Part shown: piece after piece, positions 24,550-30,600 of the stretch | Layout of the letters: each line of letters starts with the position of its first letter | How positions within the stretch are numbered: the first letter of the stretch is position 1 | Position numbers and translations under genes: made by a program | The notes under the pieces: generated by a model | What the model was told of the DNA's origin: nothing | Databases searched by the model: none | Seen by the model: only the letters and a program-made list of their open reading frames with translations | Assembly (NCBI GenBank): GCA_016744995.1 | Contig: JADGDG010000001.1 | Location: 102,011 to 166,010 of the forward strand | From: Gammaproteobacteria bacterium | GTDB lineage: Bacteria; Pseudomonadota; Gammaproteobacteria; GRL18 | Direction of reading: 5' to 3' | Length of the DNA: 64,000 nucleotides

Positions 24550-24990
24550 ATGCAAACAACCCCCACACTCTCATTCTCAGCACTTAAGTCTTATTCACAG
24601 TTATTTTTTCTTATTTTACTTTCTTTTACACTAATGACTCCGCTTTATGCAGAAGATGAGGAGGAAGTGGATGACACTAAGTATTATGAGCTTTCCCCCC
24701 CTTTTGTGGTCAACCTGCAAACCAATGAACGAAGGATGCGTTTTTTACAGGTTCGCCTGCAAGTACTTGGCAGTCCAGCAGCAATTGAAGCTGTGCAAAC
24801 ACATAATGCTCCTCTCAGAGATGTAATTATTACTGCACTTTCGGCACAAACCAGAGAGAGCGTCAATACTCCCAGGAAGAAAAAAGACCTGCAGGAAAAA
24901 GTACGTGGGGATGTGGAAAGCGTATTAAAAGATTTGACCGGGAATAAACAGATTGAAGGCTTATACTTTACAAACTTCGTTATACAATAG
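24550..24990 (+). CDS. FliL-like membrane or periplasmic protein
   Basis: A 146-residue protein. A hydrophobic N-terminal segment (about 15-36, LFFLILLSFTLMTPLYA) could be a signal peptide or anchor, and an acidic stretch DEEEVDD follows. The FliL domain (about 43-146) contains YYELSPPFVVNLQTNERRMRFLQVRLQVLG and ends in IEGLYFTNFVIQ. FliL proteins brace the flagellar stator, but stand-alone homologues also occur away from flagellar clusters, as here. The role is therefore uncertain. The hairpin repeat begins about 50 bases downstream. Confidence 0.82.
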   Translation: MQTTPTLSFSALKSYSQLFFLILLSFTLMTPLYAEDEEEVDDTKYYELSPPFVVNLQTNERRMRFLQVRLQVLGSPAAIEAVQTHNAPLRDVIITALSAQTRESVNTPRKKKDLQEKVRGDVESVLKDLTGNKQIEGLYFTNFVIQ

Positions 24991-25043: not shown

Positions 25044-25262
25044 TTGTTCGAAAATCAAAAAAAGGGGCGTTCGGACAAAATGCTAAGCCTGTTGATTGCA
25101 CCCGACACTGGTTCATCTAACTGGGGACGCTTCAGGCCCATCCATGGGTCGCTTGACAGAAAACGTCCATGTTTTCTGACACCCCACTTAGACGAACCAG
25201 TCTCGCGCGCACTCTCCTACCTCAGTTGTCCTCACTGGTGTTGTCCAAAAGCAAAGAAAAAG
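25044..25262. repeat. Hairpin repeat, left border of the accessory region (hairpin C)
   Basis: This copy has the same order of blocks as the left half of the 18-kb element: a GTTCGAAAATC start, GCGTTCGGACAAAATGCT, the hairpin, then TACCTCAGTTGTCC and TTGTCCAAAAGCAAAG. Its hairpin arms (25098-25126 and 25182-25210) share the GACTGGTTCATCTAA-type stem. The 55-base loop differs from the other copies and has its own perfect 8-bp stem CAGAAAAC/GTTTTCTG. The 18- and 30-kb copies extend further outward; this one lacks that outer end. Confidence 0.87.
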
Positions 25263-25548
25263 CAAGAGCAAAATGAGTCAAGTAATTAAAGTATCATACT
25301 AAATATCAAAAAAAATAACCTGAAATTATGGCTTTTTATACTTTGCGGAACAATTAGCATTTTCTTATGTAGTTGTGGAATCTACTATAGCCGCAATTTC
25401 ATAATTTAGAAAAATTTGAATTTGGTTCTTAAATCTCAGGTTGATAAGTTTTTAATCAAACTGAAAATGACCTTAACCGGACATTCGAGGTAAGTGAGAT
25501 TGGTTCTCAACTTTCCGGATAGCTGCAATTACAAATGAAAAAATATGC
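25263..25548. other. Gene-free stretch inside the left border
   Basis: No convincing gene is present. An open frame at about 25327-25410 encodes a lipoprotein-like leader (ILCGTISIFLCSC) but has no standard start codon and stops after 29 residues, so it may be a gene remnant. The stretch separates the hairpin repeat from the first attC-like site. Confidence 0.5.
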
Positions 25549-25623
25549 GGTGAACGCCCCGCATCACCGGGAATTTGCAGCGCGTAGCAGAGCAAATTTT
25601 CCGAGTGAATGCGATTGTTATGC
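25549..25623 (-). other. attC-like recombination site downstream of the nuclease gene
   Basis: Read on the minus strand it runs from GCATAAC to GTTCACC over 75 bases. The two halves pair imperfectly (AACAATCGCATTCACTCGG against AACGCCCCGCATCACCGG, then a shared AATTTGC), with unpaired bases on one side as in integron attC sites. The outer GCATAAC complements the GTTATGC at the cassette's other end (27186-27192), as expected for one excisable cassette. It overlaps the stop codon of the nuclease gene. A covariance search is needed for proof. Confidence 0.5.
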
Positions 25624-27135
25624 ACTGCTTCCACCTAGCCACCTATATGCTCTCCTGAAGCCAAGATTCTCAGCCTCCTTTACAGTACTAACATATTTGT
25701 CACCTTTGTGTAACTTAACTTGAAACACATCATATTTTTGATCGAATGGTAGATGGTATATTTTGTCCTCTTCAGAATTAGCGTTACATTTTATCATTGG
25801 AAACTCTTCTAGCTTTTTATTCTGCACCACATCAACACCTAGCAAGTTTGCACATATCTTGGCTTGAGCAGATATCTTAGTAGATGTGAAGAATACAGGA
25901 ACAACTTTAAACTGCTGAAATACTGAATCGTAGTTATTGTTATTAACCTTGGCCCCATACTTTTCAACGAGATAAGATACGGCTGTTCCAAATATTTGAA
26001 AAATATGTTTTTCATGAATTATTTTGCTTTGTGACCAGTTTTTACACTGGATAATTTTAGTGACACCACCCTTTATAGCAATTAAATCTCTACCCATATC
26101 CTCAAATCCCTTTATCGCTCCTTGCATATAAACATCCCAGCCATCAGAAATGTAGAGATATGCTGCATACCTTTCATAAAGTATCCCAATTTCCCATTTT
26201 GACTTATTACTTCGTACATACCTATCTAGTTTAAGCTGATTCTTCTCTGACTCTGGAAGATTTGCTTCCTCATTGGTTAGAAGGTAACTCCCTTCTTCTG
26301 AATTTGATGATGATTCATTCACATCATTCCTTTCTTGTGAGATAGGAATAGCTGGCGGTGCATGATTAAATTTCTCTAGCCATGGAAATAGTTGCTCATA
26401 CAAACGGACAGTGTACTCATTGACTTTTGACTCCTTACGAATTCTCTTTACTTCAGCCGCCATTTCAGAGACCTTTTCAGAGCCTTTGTAAGATGGGTGA
26501 CTTTTAGTTCTAAGTGAATAGGCAACATTATCAAAGATGGCTTTATTAAGATCTGATACTTGCTCTCCCATCCATTCATGTAGTGTTAATATAGAGTTAT
26601 TTTCTTTACATCTGTTTACATAGTGTTCAGACAATTCAGAAGCTTGGAGAACTCCTTCCTTGATAATTCTCTCTACTTCATTCTTATATTGCCCTTCTTT
26701 ACTATCCCACAATGCACTGATTTCAATCGCCCGTTTTTCTAGACGTTGCTTTTCTTTTTCAAGATTATTCTTTGTCTTTATAATTTTTTTATTATCAGTT
26801 CCTATATTTATCAATTCTTTTTCTATTGTTTCATTATTGTTTACAAGCTGATCAATCCTTTTTGTCATTTCATTGACATAACGGTCTTCAACCCAAGGCA
26901 TCTTAGCATCGATAGGTAACCCCTTGTTATCTAGCTTGATACTTGCAATAGTCTTATTAAGATATTCCTTAAGCGCATTATTCTCTGATGTTTCTACAAC
27001 CTTTTTTAAAAACACCATATGAGATTGGAACATTTGATTAAATATATTCTTCGACCTTTTTCGTTCATTGCCGATGCGATAATGATTAAATGCTGCATAA
27101 AGTAAGCTGGCAGCTATGATCCATATTGCTTCCAT
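25618..27135 (-). CDS. Membrane-anchored Mrr-like restriction endonuclease
   Basis: A 505-residue protein of unknown exact role. An N-terminal transmembrane helix (about 2-20, AIWIIAASLLYAAF) is followed by a helical region with a strong coiled coil at about 85-160. Residues about 315-420 form a PD-(D/E)XK nuclease domain of the Mrr/type IV type. Candidate catalytic residues are Glu321 (YERY), Asp350 (MGRDLIAIKGG) and Gln363/Lys365 (IIQCKNW). The C-terminal 50 residues (YHLPFDQKYD to EAENLGFRRAYRW) resemble a cysteine-free version of the Ada-type DNA-binding module. It sits alone between two attC-like sites, consistent with one cassette. A defence or DNA-processing role is inferred, not shown. 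Confidence 0.75.
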   Translation of the reverse strand: MEAIWIIAASLLYAAFNHYRIGNERKRSKNIFNQMFQSHMVFLKKVVETSENNALKEYLNKTIASIKLDNKGLPIDAKMPWVEDRYVNEMTKRIDQLVNNNETIEKELINIGTDNKKIIKTKNNLEKEKQRLEKRAIEISALWDSKEGQYKNEVERIIKEGVLQASELSEHYVNRCKENNSILTLHEWMGEQVSDLNKAIFDNVAYSLRTKSHPSYKGSEKVSEMAAEVKRIRKESKVNEYTVRLYEQLFPWLEKFNHAPPAIPISQERNDVNESSSNSEEGSYLLTNEEANLPESEKNQLKLDRYVRSNKSKWEIGILYERYAAYLYISDGWDVYMQGAIKGFEDMGRDLIAIKGGVTKIIQCKNWSQSKIIHEKHIFQIFGTAVSYLVEKYGAKVNNNNYDSVFQQFKVVPVFFTSTKISAQAKICANLLGVDVVQNKKLEEFPMIKCNANSEEDKIYHLPFDQKYDVFQVKLHKGDKYVSTVKEAENLGFRRAYRWLGGSSA

Positions 27136-27185
27136 AATGTCGTTTTGTACCTTATTTTTATCTGTAGTGTAGATTCATTATTTAT

Positions 27186-27275
27186 GCATAACGTTTCGCC
27201 TCTAAGGCGAGCGCCATCGCACTCATCGAAGCGGCACTAACCGTGCCGCGAGCCCTTTGCAGGCGCTTGTTGTAA
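27186..27275 (-). other. attC-like recombination site upstream of the nuclease gene
   Basis: The 90-base imperfect palindrome runs on the minus strand from TTACAAC to GTTATGC. The outer arms share AAC and CGCCT, and inner arms are GGGCTCG and CGCTCGCC. A perfect apical stem GCGGCAC/GTGCCGC is at 27231-27237 and 27243-27249. Size and the CGCCT..AGGCG pattern resemble chromosomal integron attC sites. The nuclease ATG lies 51 bases beyond its end. Confidence 0.55.
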
Positions 27276-27285
27276 CCGCCACTTG

Positions 27286-28305
27286 TGTGTGATTCATAGA
27301 CATCGTTTCAATTTTCTCAGCTTTAAATCTAACCTATAATTGGGATTTTGTATACGCTCATTTTCGATATGGTAATCTTTATGAGTGTCTTCCTTAAAGG
27401 GAGTTTTATCGGCTAACTCGAAGTACTTTTCCATTGGGAATTTACCATTATGAGCACTGTGTGGTCGATCCCAGTTGTAATAATGTTGCCACTCAGCCAA
27501 TTGTTCATGCAATGATTCAGAATCTATATCTGTAATCGAGTAAAATTCTGTTTTATCCGTACCTTGAGAACGTTCAACTTTCCCATTTAAGTGGGGAGAG
27601 CCTGGTTTATTAGGTCGAAATTTAATCGTATATTTTTTCAGTTTTTCCTGAACTTTAACGGCGAAAAATTCAGTACCACGATCGGTTTGAATACGCTGAA
27701 TAGGAAATGGCATTTCTTCTATCAAACAATCAAGAAAGTCTAATGTATTAGCAGCGGTTCTGCGGCGATAAATTCTTAAAACTCTACAACGGGTACAATC
27801 ATCTATTGATGTGTATTGATAAATCCCTGGTGCAAGCTTACAGGTGTCCATCTGGACACGATCACCAGGAATGGGTCTCTGATAACGAATAAAATCCTTT
27901 TTCCTACGAAATTTCTTTATGGGTTTAACATTGTTCTTCTTAAGAATTTTATGAATAGTTGCCAGTGATAATGAAATCTTATGAAGGCGTTTTAACTCAC
28001 TCTGTATCCGCCTTGCTCCCAAGTTTCTTGATGTTCGCAACTCGAGGATAAGTGACTCTTCCTTATTAGAAGCTTTTCTATTTGGAGAGCTGTGTGGACG
28101 CCGACTTTGGCTTTCCAGACCAGCAATTCCTAACTCAGAATATCGACGCCACCACTTCCTTAGAGTTGGCCTGGAAATACCGCATCGACGACAGACAAAA
28201 CCAGCATTACCTGTCTGCTCATAAAGTTTAACCCACTTTAATCTTTGTTGAATTTCTCTGTTCATAATACCCCATTATAGTGAAAGGATGTCTATGAATC
28301 ACACA
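27286..28305 (-). mobile_element. IS481-family insertion sequence, 1020 bp
   Basis: Terminal inverted repeats TGTGTGATTCATAGACATC are perfect over 19 bases at both ends (27286-27304 and 28287-28305). One transposase gene fills the element. No target duplication is visible: the left flank ends CACTTG and the right flank starts GGTAT. The right end lies inside vapC; the missing vapC end is not found on the left side, so a flanking deletion or rearrangement probably followed insertion. Confidence 0.93.
27294..28265 (-). CDS. IS481-family transposase
   Basis: A 323-residue DDE transposase. The N-terminal helix-turn-helix (about 1-60) contains KWVKLYEQTGNAGFVCRRCGIS and a second HTH follows. In the catalytic core the first Asp is in VQMDTCKL, the second in IQTDRGTEF and the Glu in NGKVERSQGTDK. 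The end has the YNWDRPHSAHNGK motif. The gene is intact from ATG to stop and fills the element between the terminal repeats, so it could be active. Confidence 0.95.
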   Translation of the reverse strand: MNREIQQRLKWVKLYEQTGNAGFVCRRCGISRPTLRKWWRRYSELGIAGLESQSRRPHSSPNRKASNKEESLILELRTSRNLGARRIQSELKRLHKISLSLATIHKILKKNNVKPIKKFRRKKDFIRYQRPIPGDRVQMDTCKLAPGIYQYTSIDDCTRCRVLRIYRRRTAANTLDFLDCLIEEMPFPIQRIQTDRGTEFFAVKVQEKLKKYTIKFRPNKPGSPHLNGKVERSQGTDKTEFYSITDIDSESLHEQLAEWQHYYNWDRPHSAHNGKFPMEKYFELADKTPFKEDTHKDYHIENERIQNPNYRLDLKLRKLKRCL

Positions 28306-28578
28306 GGTATATCAATGCCATTTGAACCTGATTTCAAACAAGAAACTTGATAGTCTCTAATTTCTTCCCAATCAGGATGCATATGGTGTTGTTTTACCAT
28401 TTTTAATAAATTTATTATTTTTTTTTCTTGTTTTACAATGAGGAGAGGTAATAATTCTGTAAGAATCAGATCATTAATTACAATCAAATTTTCATCAATT
28501 AAAAAATCCAATTTTTCTGATTTATCTCCAGAGCGAAAATAATCAATCCACACAGAAGTATCTACTAACTACTTCCAT
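28306..28578 (-). pseudogene. vapC: vapC PIN-domain toxin remnant, frameshifted and cut by the insertion sequence
   Basis: The preserved part encodes VDTSVWIDYFRSGDK with the PIN-domain acidic residues, then a helical middle and CLKSGSNGIDIP, where the IS starts. The C-terminal third (the DLLIA region) is missing. The ATG at 28578 overlaps the vapB stop and reads MEVV, but the PIN frame is shifted there. The coding sequence looks two bases short in a T run (GTTAGTAGAT where GTTTTAGTAGAT would fit). Two independent lesions make the toxin inactive. Confidence 0.8.
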
Positions 28579-28772
28579 TATGATCTGTCTCTAATTGCAT
28601 CTAGATCAATGTCTAAATTAATTTTACCTTTAAATTTTTTTAGTTCAGATAATTCTGATTTTCTAATAAGCTCTTGAAGTGCAAACGTAATTACTTTTGT
28701 TTTTGTTTTTATATGTGAAACAGACATTGCTTCAAGTAAAAGCTCTTCTGGCAAATCTAGTGTTGTTCTCAT
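28578..28772 (-). CDS. vapB: VapB-type antitoxin (ribbon-helix-helix)
   Basis: A 64-residue protein starting MRTTLDLPEELL, a ribbon-helix-helix start typical of VapB antitoxins. A helix VITFALQELIRKSEL follows, and an acidic tail (INLDIDLDAIRDRS) would bind the toxin. The longer open frame back to 28871 is rejected because the ATG at 28772 has GGAG eight bases upstream and matches the family N terminus. Its stop overlaps the vapC start by one base. With the toxin destroyed, it is an orphan antitoxin. Confidence 0.8.
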   Translation of the reverse strand: MRTTLDLPEELLLEAMSVSHIKTKTKVITFALQELIRKSELSELKKFKGKINLDIDLDAIRDRS

Positions 28773-28853
28773 CTTGTTTACTCCAGTTTGCATGCATAGA
28801 ATTGCACTTTTATGCATAATTATCAAGATAGTAGGAGTGATGTAGTTTTGTGT

Positions 28854-28927
28854 ACCCAACGCCAAAATCATCGGGGTGTCTTTTAGCCTCTGATGAATTT
28901 TTTTATTATCTTTCTATCGTTCAGTTT
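28854..28927 (-). other. Possible degenerate attC-like site after higA
   Basis: On the minus strand the right half GGCGTTGGGT fits the GTTRRRY core of attC sites. An inner stem CATCAGAGG/CCCCGATG is present. The left half (AACGATAGAAAG) pairs only weakly. It lies exactly between higA and vapB, where a cassette boundary would be expected. Evidence is weaker than for the other three sites. Confidence 0.35.
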
Positions 28928-29285
28928 AAGCAATATCAGCTAATAGGCTTTCGTATGGAATGTTTAGCCCATCATGTAGACGTTTAACCATGCGCAGACT
29001 TAAAGGACGTTTTTTATTTAGTATTTCTGACACTCTTCCACTGCTCCCAATAAAAGTTTCTAAATCTCTAGCGGTTAAACCCTGTTGTTCCATTCTAAAC
29101 TTTATTGCTTCTATAGGGTTAGGAGGACTAATAGGGTAATGCTTATTCTCATAAGCTTCTATCAAAGTGACTAAAATCTCCATTTCATCAGATTCTTCAG
29201 TACCTTTTTTAGATTGAAACACCACCTCTAATTGACGGAAGGCAGCTTTTAAGTCTTTATCATTTCGGATTGGTTTAATATTCAT
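28926..29285 (-). CDS. higA: HigA-type antitoxin (XRE helix-turn-helix)
   Basis: A 119-residue protein. The N-terminal half is helical (LKAAFRQLEVVFQSKKGT), and the C-terminal half is an XRE DNA-binding domain with IKFRMEQQGLTARDLETFIGSSGRVSEILNKKRPLSLRMVKRLHDGL. It neutralises HigB and represses the operon. Its start overlaps the end of higB by 11 bases, the usual toxin-first order of higBA. Confidence 0.9.
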   Translation of the reverse strand: MNIKPIRNDKDLKAAFRQLEVVFQSKKGTEESDEMEILVTLIEAYENKHYPISPPNPIEAIKFRMEQQGLTARDLETFIGSSGRVSEILNKKRPLSLRMVKRLHDGLNIPYESLLADIA

Positions 29286-29583
29286 TTACATTCTCGACTG
29301 AAATTTTATCGTATTGAGCATGAGTACCTATAAATTTTACCCAAACAATACCAGCTTGATATTGAATTTCGACTACTAGTCGGTATTTATTGCCACCAAT
29401 ATTAAAAACCACTCGATTGTTTCCGCATATACTTGCGTTACCATATTGATTTTTTACATCTCGTGGTGATAACCAATTTGCTTTTATGGTTTCTTCATAC
29501 CAACTTTCAAGTGAACCTTTTGAATCACCATATGCTGGTTGCTCCCAGAATTTTCTTATAGTGCTTTTAGCAATCACTCTCAT
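29275..29583 (-). CDS. higB: HigB-type mRNA interferase toxin
   Basis: A 102-residue RelE-superfamily toxin with IRKFWEQPAYGDSKGSLESWY, the core NNRVVFNIGGNKYRLVVEIQYQAGIVWVKFIGTHAQYDKI and a short acidic tail. HigB cleaves mRNA on the ribosome. The gene is complete and preceded by a clear promoter with an operator between -10 and the start codon. A self-promoted toxin-antitoxin pair is typical for toxin cassettes in integrons. Confidence 0.9.
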   Translation of the reverse strand: MRVIAKSTIRKFWEQPAYGDSKGSLESWYEETIKANWLSPRDVKNQYGNASICGNNRVVFNIGGNKYRLVVEIQYQAGIVWVKFIGTHAQYDKISVENVNEY

Positions 29584-30316: not shown

Positions 30317-30600
30317 GAGCTAGAGTGCTGTTGCTGTTGCTGTTTCTTTGCTTTTGGACAACACCAGTGAGGACAACTGAGGTAGAAGAGTGTACGCGAG
30401 ACTGGTTCGTCTAACTGGGGTGTTTGGAGCCATGGACGGCGACAGCAAGCGTTACATGGACGTACCAGAAGCGTCCCCAGCTAGACGAATCAGTGTCGGG
30501 TGCAATCGGCAGATTCAGCACTTCGTCCGAACGCCCTCTTCTTTTGACCTTCGAACACCAATGAATTACGCCCAGGTAGAAGTCCCCTTCAGGGCCACTA
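30317..30600. repeat. Hairpin repeat, right border of the accessory region (hairpin D)
   Basis: An inverted copy relative to 25044-25262 that matches the right half of the 18-kb element: GAGCTAGAG start, TTTCTTTGCTTTTGGACAAC, then the hairpin with arms 30391-30420 and 30475-30504. A 54-base loop nearly identical to those of hairpins A and B follows, then TTCGTCCGAACGCC and an outer end with AATTACGCCCAGG. It ends about 30 bases before the hemE stop codon. Open frames inside it are not genes. Confidence 0.88.

Follow-up and report, generated by a model that had tools for sequence, protein, structure and literature searches.

A membrane-anchored Mrr-like nuclease with an Ada-like tail, carried in an integron-type cassette, belongs to a mobile family with a putative role in anti-phage defence

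Until now, the closest described relative in layout of the protein reported here is SNIPE (PD-lambda-1), which, according to the accessible part of its report, is a single gene joining a transmembrane (TM) segment, a DUF4041 domain and a GIY-YIG nuclease (PMC13190303). The same part of the report places SNIPE in the inner membrane, with its N terminus outside and its nuclease in the cytoplasm, and describes that it cuts lambda DNA during injection, that it is toxic once the helix is removed unless it is catalytically dead, and that it did not block plasmid transformation (PMC13190303). Zorya and Kiwa are also membrane-localised and act on DNA; in the portion of the source available they are multi-gene systems in which sensor and effector are separate proteins (PMC12904381), which sets them apart from the family described below. 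In the open-licence literature we found no membrane-anchored Mrr defence family. The accessible part of the SNIPE report contains no Mrr (PMC13190303), and such a protein does not appear in the accessible parts of DefensePredictor (PMC13092281) or of an E. coli pangenome selection (PMC9519451).

Here we describe a 505-residue protein encoded in a 64,000-nucleotide stretch of gammaproteobacterial DNA (the window; contig JADGDG010000001.1), which begins with a short hydrophobic helix and continues with long helices, a PD-(D/E)XK domain and an Ada-like C-terminal domain (Table 1). An earlier, sequence-only reading of the window had given this anatomy, which was right in all main points, and had proposed that a nuclease fixed at the inner membrane could act on entering phage or conjugative DNA. 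This interpretation is plausible, strengthened by the present analysis and supported in part: for phage DNA it has a precedent in SNIPE, but for conjugative DNA it found no support. Judged against the accessible part of the SNIPE report, the Mrr-like family and SNIPE are alike in their single N-terminal helix, periplasmic N terminus and variable N-terminal region, in the order of a middle domain and then a C-terminal nuclease, in being encoded by one gene, in their sporadic occurrence over many phyla, and in having some members without a TM helix that are attached to the membrane by other means. They differ in that the Mrr-like family has a PD-(D/E)XK instead of a GIY-YIG nuclease and an extra sunset domain, in that its anchor can be a separate upstream gene, and in that one clade has a topoisomerase-type zinc ribbon. 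DUF4041 (PF13250) was absent from the 25 families matched by 55 members at E 0.01 and gave no match to the window protein at E 1, and no DUF4041 protein turned up when 143 genomes and 14 controls were scanned for one. The best reading, by analogy, is that the Mrr-like family would work like SNIPE and yet is not a SNIPE, having neither DUF4041 nor GIY-YIG.

Table 1. Features of the nuclease gene and its cassette (positions in the window)
Feature	Coordinates	Strand	Evidence
Integron-type cassette around the gene, 1637 bp	25555..27191	minus	complementary R boxes
attC of the cassette (last six bases from cassette start)	25555..25623	minus	joined-site fold
attC-like site of a preceding cassette, immediately upstream	27186..27277	minus	z -2.93, 0/200 shuffles as good
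IS481-family insertion sequence near the upstream attC	27286..28305	minus	NF033577 E 1.4e-79; transposase 27294-28265
Gene, 505-aa membrane-anchored Mrr-like nuclease	25618..27135	minus	ORF, translation, homologues; ATG start
N-terminal hydrophobic helix, residues 3-21	27073..27129	minus	KD19, WW octanol, flanking K+R
Long helices with a probable coiled coil, residues 81-179	26599..26895	minus	AlphaFold helices, heptad power
Middle helical region, conserved, unnamed, about residues 186-278	26302..26580	minus	tblastn, invariants
Nuclease domain of PD-(D/E)XK (Mrr-like) type, residues 311-445	25801..26205	minus	fold matches, invariance, Pfam
C-terminal Ada-like 'sunset' domain, residues 448-496	25648..25794	minus	NF051437, N-Ada fold matches

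The PD-(D/E)XK core proposed earlier is predicted with high confidence. AlphaFold pLDDT is about 90-98 over most of residues 290-490, and the model matches the structures of AF1548 (1y88; Z 13.3) and EndoMS (Z 12.2) and, further off, those of the CRISPR ancillary nuclease 2 (Can2; Z 9.6), FokI (8.5), MspJI (8.3) and AspBHI (8.0); Foldseek also returned nuclease folds. A sequence-profile search of the PDB gave only helical or chance matches, plus AF1548 at E 0.71. The residues that had been named as catalytic (Glu321, Asp350 and Gln363-x-Lys365) are invariant in 55/55 aligned rows, and G317, D346, G348, R349, W367 and E375 are likewise invariant among the 55 aligned proteins. Against Pfam, the window protein alone gives a sub-threshold match to Mrr_cat_2 (E 0.054, 13.8 vs 22 bits) and otherwise chance helical matches, while Mrr_cat is found in 46 and Mrr_cat_2 in 52 of the 55 members. 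Against PADLOC, the window protein matched no family at E up to 1, and the 55 members gave no good model, only five weak, scattered families with at most two members each; a weak ZorD match in one of the 55 is the sole trace of Zorya, likeness to Zorya and Kiwa being checked by PADLOC scans alone.

Mrr restriction endonucleases share with the window family the PD-(D/E)XK core with D-(Q)xK, and most members match Pfam Mrr_cat or Mrr_cat_2. The family differs from the Mrr type IV enzymes by its membrane anchor, long helices and sunset domain, and the N-terminal Mrr_N winged-helix domain that characterises the E. coli Mrr type was matched neither by the window protein (Pfam) nor among the families of the 55 members. 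RmuC proteins also combine a TM helix, a coiled coil and a PD-(D/E)XK domain, a general layout like that of the window protein, but RmuC is a broadly conserved housekeeping gene and the window family is rare. Neither a search with the window protein, at E up to 1, nor one with the 55 members (25 families), at E 0.01, matched the RmuC nuclease family (PF02646).

The C-terminal tail resembles the domain of the NCBIfam 'sunset' proteins (NF051437), which 52/55 members match at E 0.01 (best 4.1e-8); the window protein itself lies below the curated cut-off (E 1e-3, 19 bits vs 27), its match covering profile positions 1-41 of 42. No paper on a 'sunset domain' was found in the open-licence literature. 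When the tail (residues 438-505) was modelled alone, mean pLDDT was 75.6 and Foldseek found only four matches in the PDB, of which three were the E. coli Ada N-domain, all weak (E 3.8 to 5.3); the best alignment with this domain reached Z 4.3 and rmsd 2.6 over 48 residues. The likeness to the Ada N-domain in these models is thus weak but pointed, and the earlier description of an Ada-like tail stands to that extent. Its description as cysteine-free was wrong, since C450, the only cysteine in residues 438-505, is present and invariant in 55/55. Together with H461 and D465, which are also invariant, C450 may have a metal or fold role. The four zinc-binding cysteines of Ada would presumably map to H461, D465, A496 and W499; by these positions they are absent from the tail of the window protein, so Ada-like methyl transfer is not expected.

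Between the anchor and the nuclease, the AlphaFold model of the window protein contains confidently predicted helices at residues 81-111 and 115-179. Only 17 of 1000 shuffles equalled the heptad power of residues 115-179, so that of the long coiled coil claimed earlier the long helices are firm predictions and the coiled coil itself is likely. The middle region that follows is where tblastn similarity to the Hymenobacter protein begins (residue 188); its invariants in alignment A1 are Y246, E247, L249, F250 and P251, and in most of the 55 members it carries no named Pfam domain.

The transmembrane helix is the part on which the membrane reading depends, and it holds, being marginal for the window protein alone and clear in the family. 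Residues 3-21 of the window protein are hydrophobic, with a Kyte-Doolittle (KD) 19-window mean of 1.15 (the usual threshold is 1.6) and a favourable Wimley-White octanol sum of -6.47, which makes this helix among the weakest of the family. It is flanked by no K+R on its N side and four on its C side, a charge pattern that fits an N-out/C-in orientation. We surveyed 59 homologue loci (L004 and L008-L065; L005-L007, near copies of L004, were left out), scoring a helix in cis when the Kyte-Doolittle 19-mean reached 1.6 or more anywhere in residues 1-60. By this automatic rule 42/59 loci have the helix in cis, and L055 and L063 join them once a non-ATG start is allowed, giving 44. Three loci at contig edges (L026, L031, L034) were not judged, which leaves 56 judgeable loci; the 12 of these that have no helix in cis each carry, directly upstream, a gene for a small TM protein (97-161 aa where the length is given) whose product begins with a hydrophobic helix. 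A TM helix is therefore present, in the protein or in the adjacent upstream gene, at 56/56 judgeable loci. Applied automatically, a rule for small TM ORFs just upstream picked 10/17 non-cis members, against 9/196 non-cis neighbour genes. The automatic call was overridden by eye for L027, L040 and L048 (adjacent TM gene) and for L055 and L063 (cis, non-ATG start), where the KD threshold was missed, the upstream start was set too early or the frame was not picked; the upstream helix of L027 is below the KD threshold, and L048 entered the automatic ten only through a spurious 43-aa ORF, its real partner being read by eye. Charge follows the same pattern in most of the family: in 36/42 cis members the K+R count is higher on the C side of the helix than on its N side, in 4 it is lower and in 2 the sides are equal.

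On the tree, the split state, with the anchor in trans, must have changed twice, once within Hymenobacter in a group with good support; a single origin would also be compatible with the strongest branches. The anchor has thus outlasted what were probably gene splits, and it probably has a function: that it was kept through splitting is otherwise hard to explain, which argues that membrane position matters. A topoisomerase-type C4 zinc ribbon is encoded just upstream of the nuclease in 10/59 loci by a strict motif (L022, L024, L027-L030, L032, L033, L038 and L040, of which L022 and L024 also have a helix in cis), and Pfam Zn_ribbon_Top1 was matched by 10/132 genome neighbours. These small proteins mostly begin with a TM helix and are candidates for a second subunit in one clade.

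Relatives were found at 42 genome loci, at 16 viral-contig loci and on four Hymenobacter plasmids, whose protein is 36-37% identical and shorter, with its parts in the same order. The scans with the alignment as query drew the 42 genome relatives from 300 candidate stretches and the 16 viral-contig loci from 61; a single-protein query of the genome collection gave nine pattern matches, none of them a relative, and tblastn against the phages collection gave no match. Alignment A2 was made without L004, L037, L042, L045 and L061 (Hymenobacter or duplicate copies). The family extends over Patescibacteria, Planctomycetota, Bacillota, Bacteroidota, Pseudomonadota and others, with Patescibacteria and other candidate phyla contributing many of the proteins, organism labels being uncertain as many homologues come from MAGs. 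In a survey of the phylum at E 1e-20 only 1/398 genomes had the gene, namely the window's own, and in the class at 1e-10 there were 2/369, again including the window's own; the other family member in the class, L067, was left out of the analysis. The gene is sporadic, mobile and horizontally spread. Homologues could have turned out to be soluble housekeeping proteins; instead all judgeable ones have a TM helix in cis or adjacent, and they are sporadic and occur in prophage-like contigs. Two pairs of near-identical members (L018/L035 and L019/L046) lie in contigs labelled as different phyla, through either recent transfer or wrong binning. One further candidate, L003, also has an Mrr-like domain but is another kind of membrane protein and was set aside.

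That the gene is carried as a cassette, as the sequence-only reading had it, is supported, and the cassette is of integron type. The R'' box GCATAAC (25623-25617), into which the stop codon of the nuclease gene runs, is complementary to G+TTATGC (27192-27186), and TTATGC (27191-27186) precedes the start codon with 50 bases between. When the two ends of the 1637 bp are joined as a circle, they form a 75-nt attC-type hairpin of -18 kcal/mol as DNA (z -4.45), and none of 200 shuffles was as good. No integron integrase was detected in the window's genome (95.8% complete), where 0/13 matches to TIGR02249 exceeded the cut-off, the best scoring 114.9 vs 265 bits; cassette stretches of this kind without an integrase (CALIN) are known. 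A genome-wide pattern search detected no other attC site that shares this R box (one in the reversed control), so no larger cassette array is shown, and within the window other attC sites with perfect 7-bp R boxes amounted only to chance-like pairs. Our data thus support an integron-type cassette in a stretch without a detected integrase. In a congener, the counterpart of the gene ending at 24990 and hemE lie about 60 bp apart, and the entire intervening stretch is missing.

In viral contigs, 84 neighbours at 15 loci (one duplicate dropped) included 8 tyrosine integrases, 2 large serine recombinases, 16 HTH_3 proteins and 1 Abi_alpha, integrase matches being counted over all loci and not each assigned to its own locus. 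The nuclease gene usually lies after a repressor-like gene and before a recombinase-sized or integrase gene, and the repressor-integrase interval is a usual place of lysogenic-conversion genes. In genomes, the near neighbours (n=132) matched 69 PADLOC models at 1e-10; among the 25 of the 69 listed are SoFic (2 proteins), PDC-S04 (2), type IIG and DpnI-type restriction, AbiEi, AbiEii, PDC-S31 and DrmMI. As a control, an equal number of genes (132), picked at random beyond 5.5 kb at the same loci, matched 12 models, DRT and a 2TM effector among them; the figures of 69 and 12 are inflated by redundant models, and the generic mad3, mad8 and AriA occur in both sets. Neighbour lists were made without L037, L042, L045, L061 and ORFs under 90 aa. 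The neighbourhood survey for defence islands suggested earlier therefore yields more defence models near the gene, as a modest excess for which we claim no significance; a strong 'defence island' reading was dropped, given the redundant PADLOC families and the generic models both near and far. Many genomic loci adjoin ordinary metabolic genes.

We consider it fairly probable that this is a mobile anti-phage gene encoding a constitutively membrane-tethered DNA nuclease that cuts phage DNA at injection. Another possible explanation, to which we give a minor share, is a type IV-like, modification-dependent restriction enzyme that is membrane-bound by chance, whose sunset or Ada-like domain would read modified or damaged DNA and license the nuclease. 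In this sense, the modification-dependent MspJI and AspBHI are among the close nuclease folds, the Mrr_cat matches are widespread in the family, and the tail resembles the N-domain of Ada, which handles methylated DNA. Nevertheless, neither Mrr_N nor another known modified-base reader was found by Pfam in the window protein or the 55 members, the missing zinc cysteines speak against Ada-like chemistry, and this explanation by itself gives no account of why the anchor persists once the gene is split.

It is rather unlikely that the nuclease serves competence, conjugation or DNA salvage, acting on DNA that the cell imports or exports, and not defence. A membrane position would suit any passing DNA, and the numerous homologues from Patescibacteria and other candidate phyla would agree with such a role; the rare and patchy occurrence, the position typical of lysogenic conversion in temperate-phage contigs and the integron-type cassette do not, and no com or tra genes were seen among the 25 commonest of 102 neighbour families. 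Least probable, and by our judgement quite improbable, is a membrane-anchored abortive-infection effector that stays off until infection is sensed and then kills the cell, cutting its DNA as well as that of the phage. PD-(D/E)XK domains of close fold do act as effectors in the CRISPR ancillary nucleases Can2 and Card1, but the family shows neither a sensor nor a nucleotide-binding domain, and its only conserved partner is the gene for the zinc-ribbon membrane protein of one clade.

Returning to cutting at injection, the computed architecture, the conserved catalytic residues, the anchor conserved in cis or in an adjacent gene and the mobility of the family are what this reading builds on; from them we infer DNA cleavage, an injection-site mode of action, a phage target and a role for the sunset domain. 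The single N-terminal helix (N-out, C-in) would fix the nuclease in the inner membrane, and the long helices and middle region would hold the PD-(D/E)XK and Ada-like domains in the cytoplasm beside it. Anchoring would then keep the nuclease off the chromosome and at the site of phage DNA entry, where injected DNA could be cut; that the membrane both restrains the nuclease and sites it at entry would be the same logic as in SNIPE, the tested precedent of the same layout from which action on entering phage DNA is suggested by analogy. The sunset domain, and in one clade the zinc-ribbon membrane protein, are likely DNA- or partner-binding parts.

Defence by a membrane-localised nuclease is already known; the present family would be a new version of it, built from Mrr and sunset parts. 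The available portion of the SNIPE report (2026) indicates that the distinction of self from non-self can rest on place, that is, on a nuclease fixed where phage DNA enters. More tentatively, and with somewhat less than even confidence, we propose that the present family constitutes a second, independently evolved injection-site nuclease immunity, in which inner-membrane Mrr-type nucleases with an Ada-like sunset reader and a splittable anchor (with a zinc ribbon in one clade) are carried by prophages, plasmids and integron cassettes against entering phage DNA. If so, the place-based principle arose more than once and is not peculiar to GIY-YIG/DUF4041 proteins, and the sunset domain would gain its first functional setting. 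As anchor and nuclease are separate genes in the split-anchor members, the anchor can be removed or swapped there, which makes the principle directly testable.

Other elements accompany the gene. A conserved 415-aa protein is encoded directly upstream of the nuclease gene in L004 (6468-7715) and L041 (8479-9726), and was found in Hymenobacter plasmids and some contigs. In the window, a repeat of about 230 bp occurs at 25044-25300 and 30320-30544, and at 48 places in the genome; the two that flank the insert are inverted, imperfect copies. We had considered them as transposon ends of the nuclease gene and rejected this, as the repeat is genome-wide and looks like a non-coding interspersed element. 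A HigB/HigA-type pair (28926-29583, minus strand) matches in PADLOC the A component of PD-Lambda-2 (3e-39) and the first 119 of 402 positions of its B component; the peptidase part is missing from the 119-aa antitoxin, so this is either a plain toxin-antitoxin pair or a reduced PD-Lambda-2 relative. The IS481 element has terminal inverted repeats of 25 nt, 96% complementary, and next to it (28299-28871, minus strand) a VapB antitoxin is encoded together with a VapC of only 84 aa (model positions 8-69 of 125), which ends at the IS481 end and was probably truncated by its insertion.
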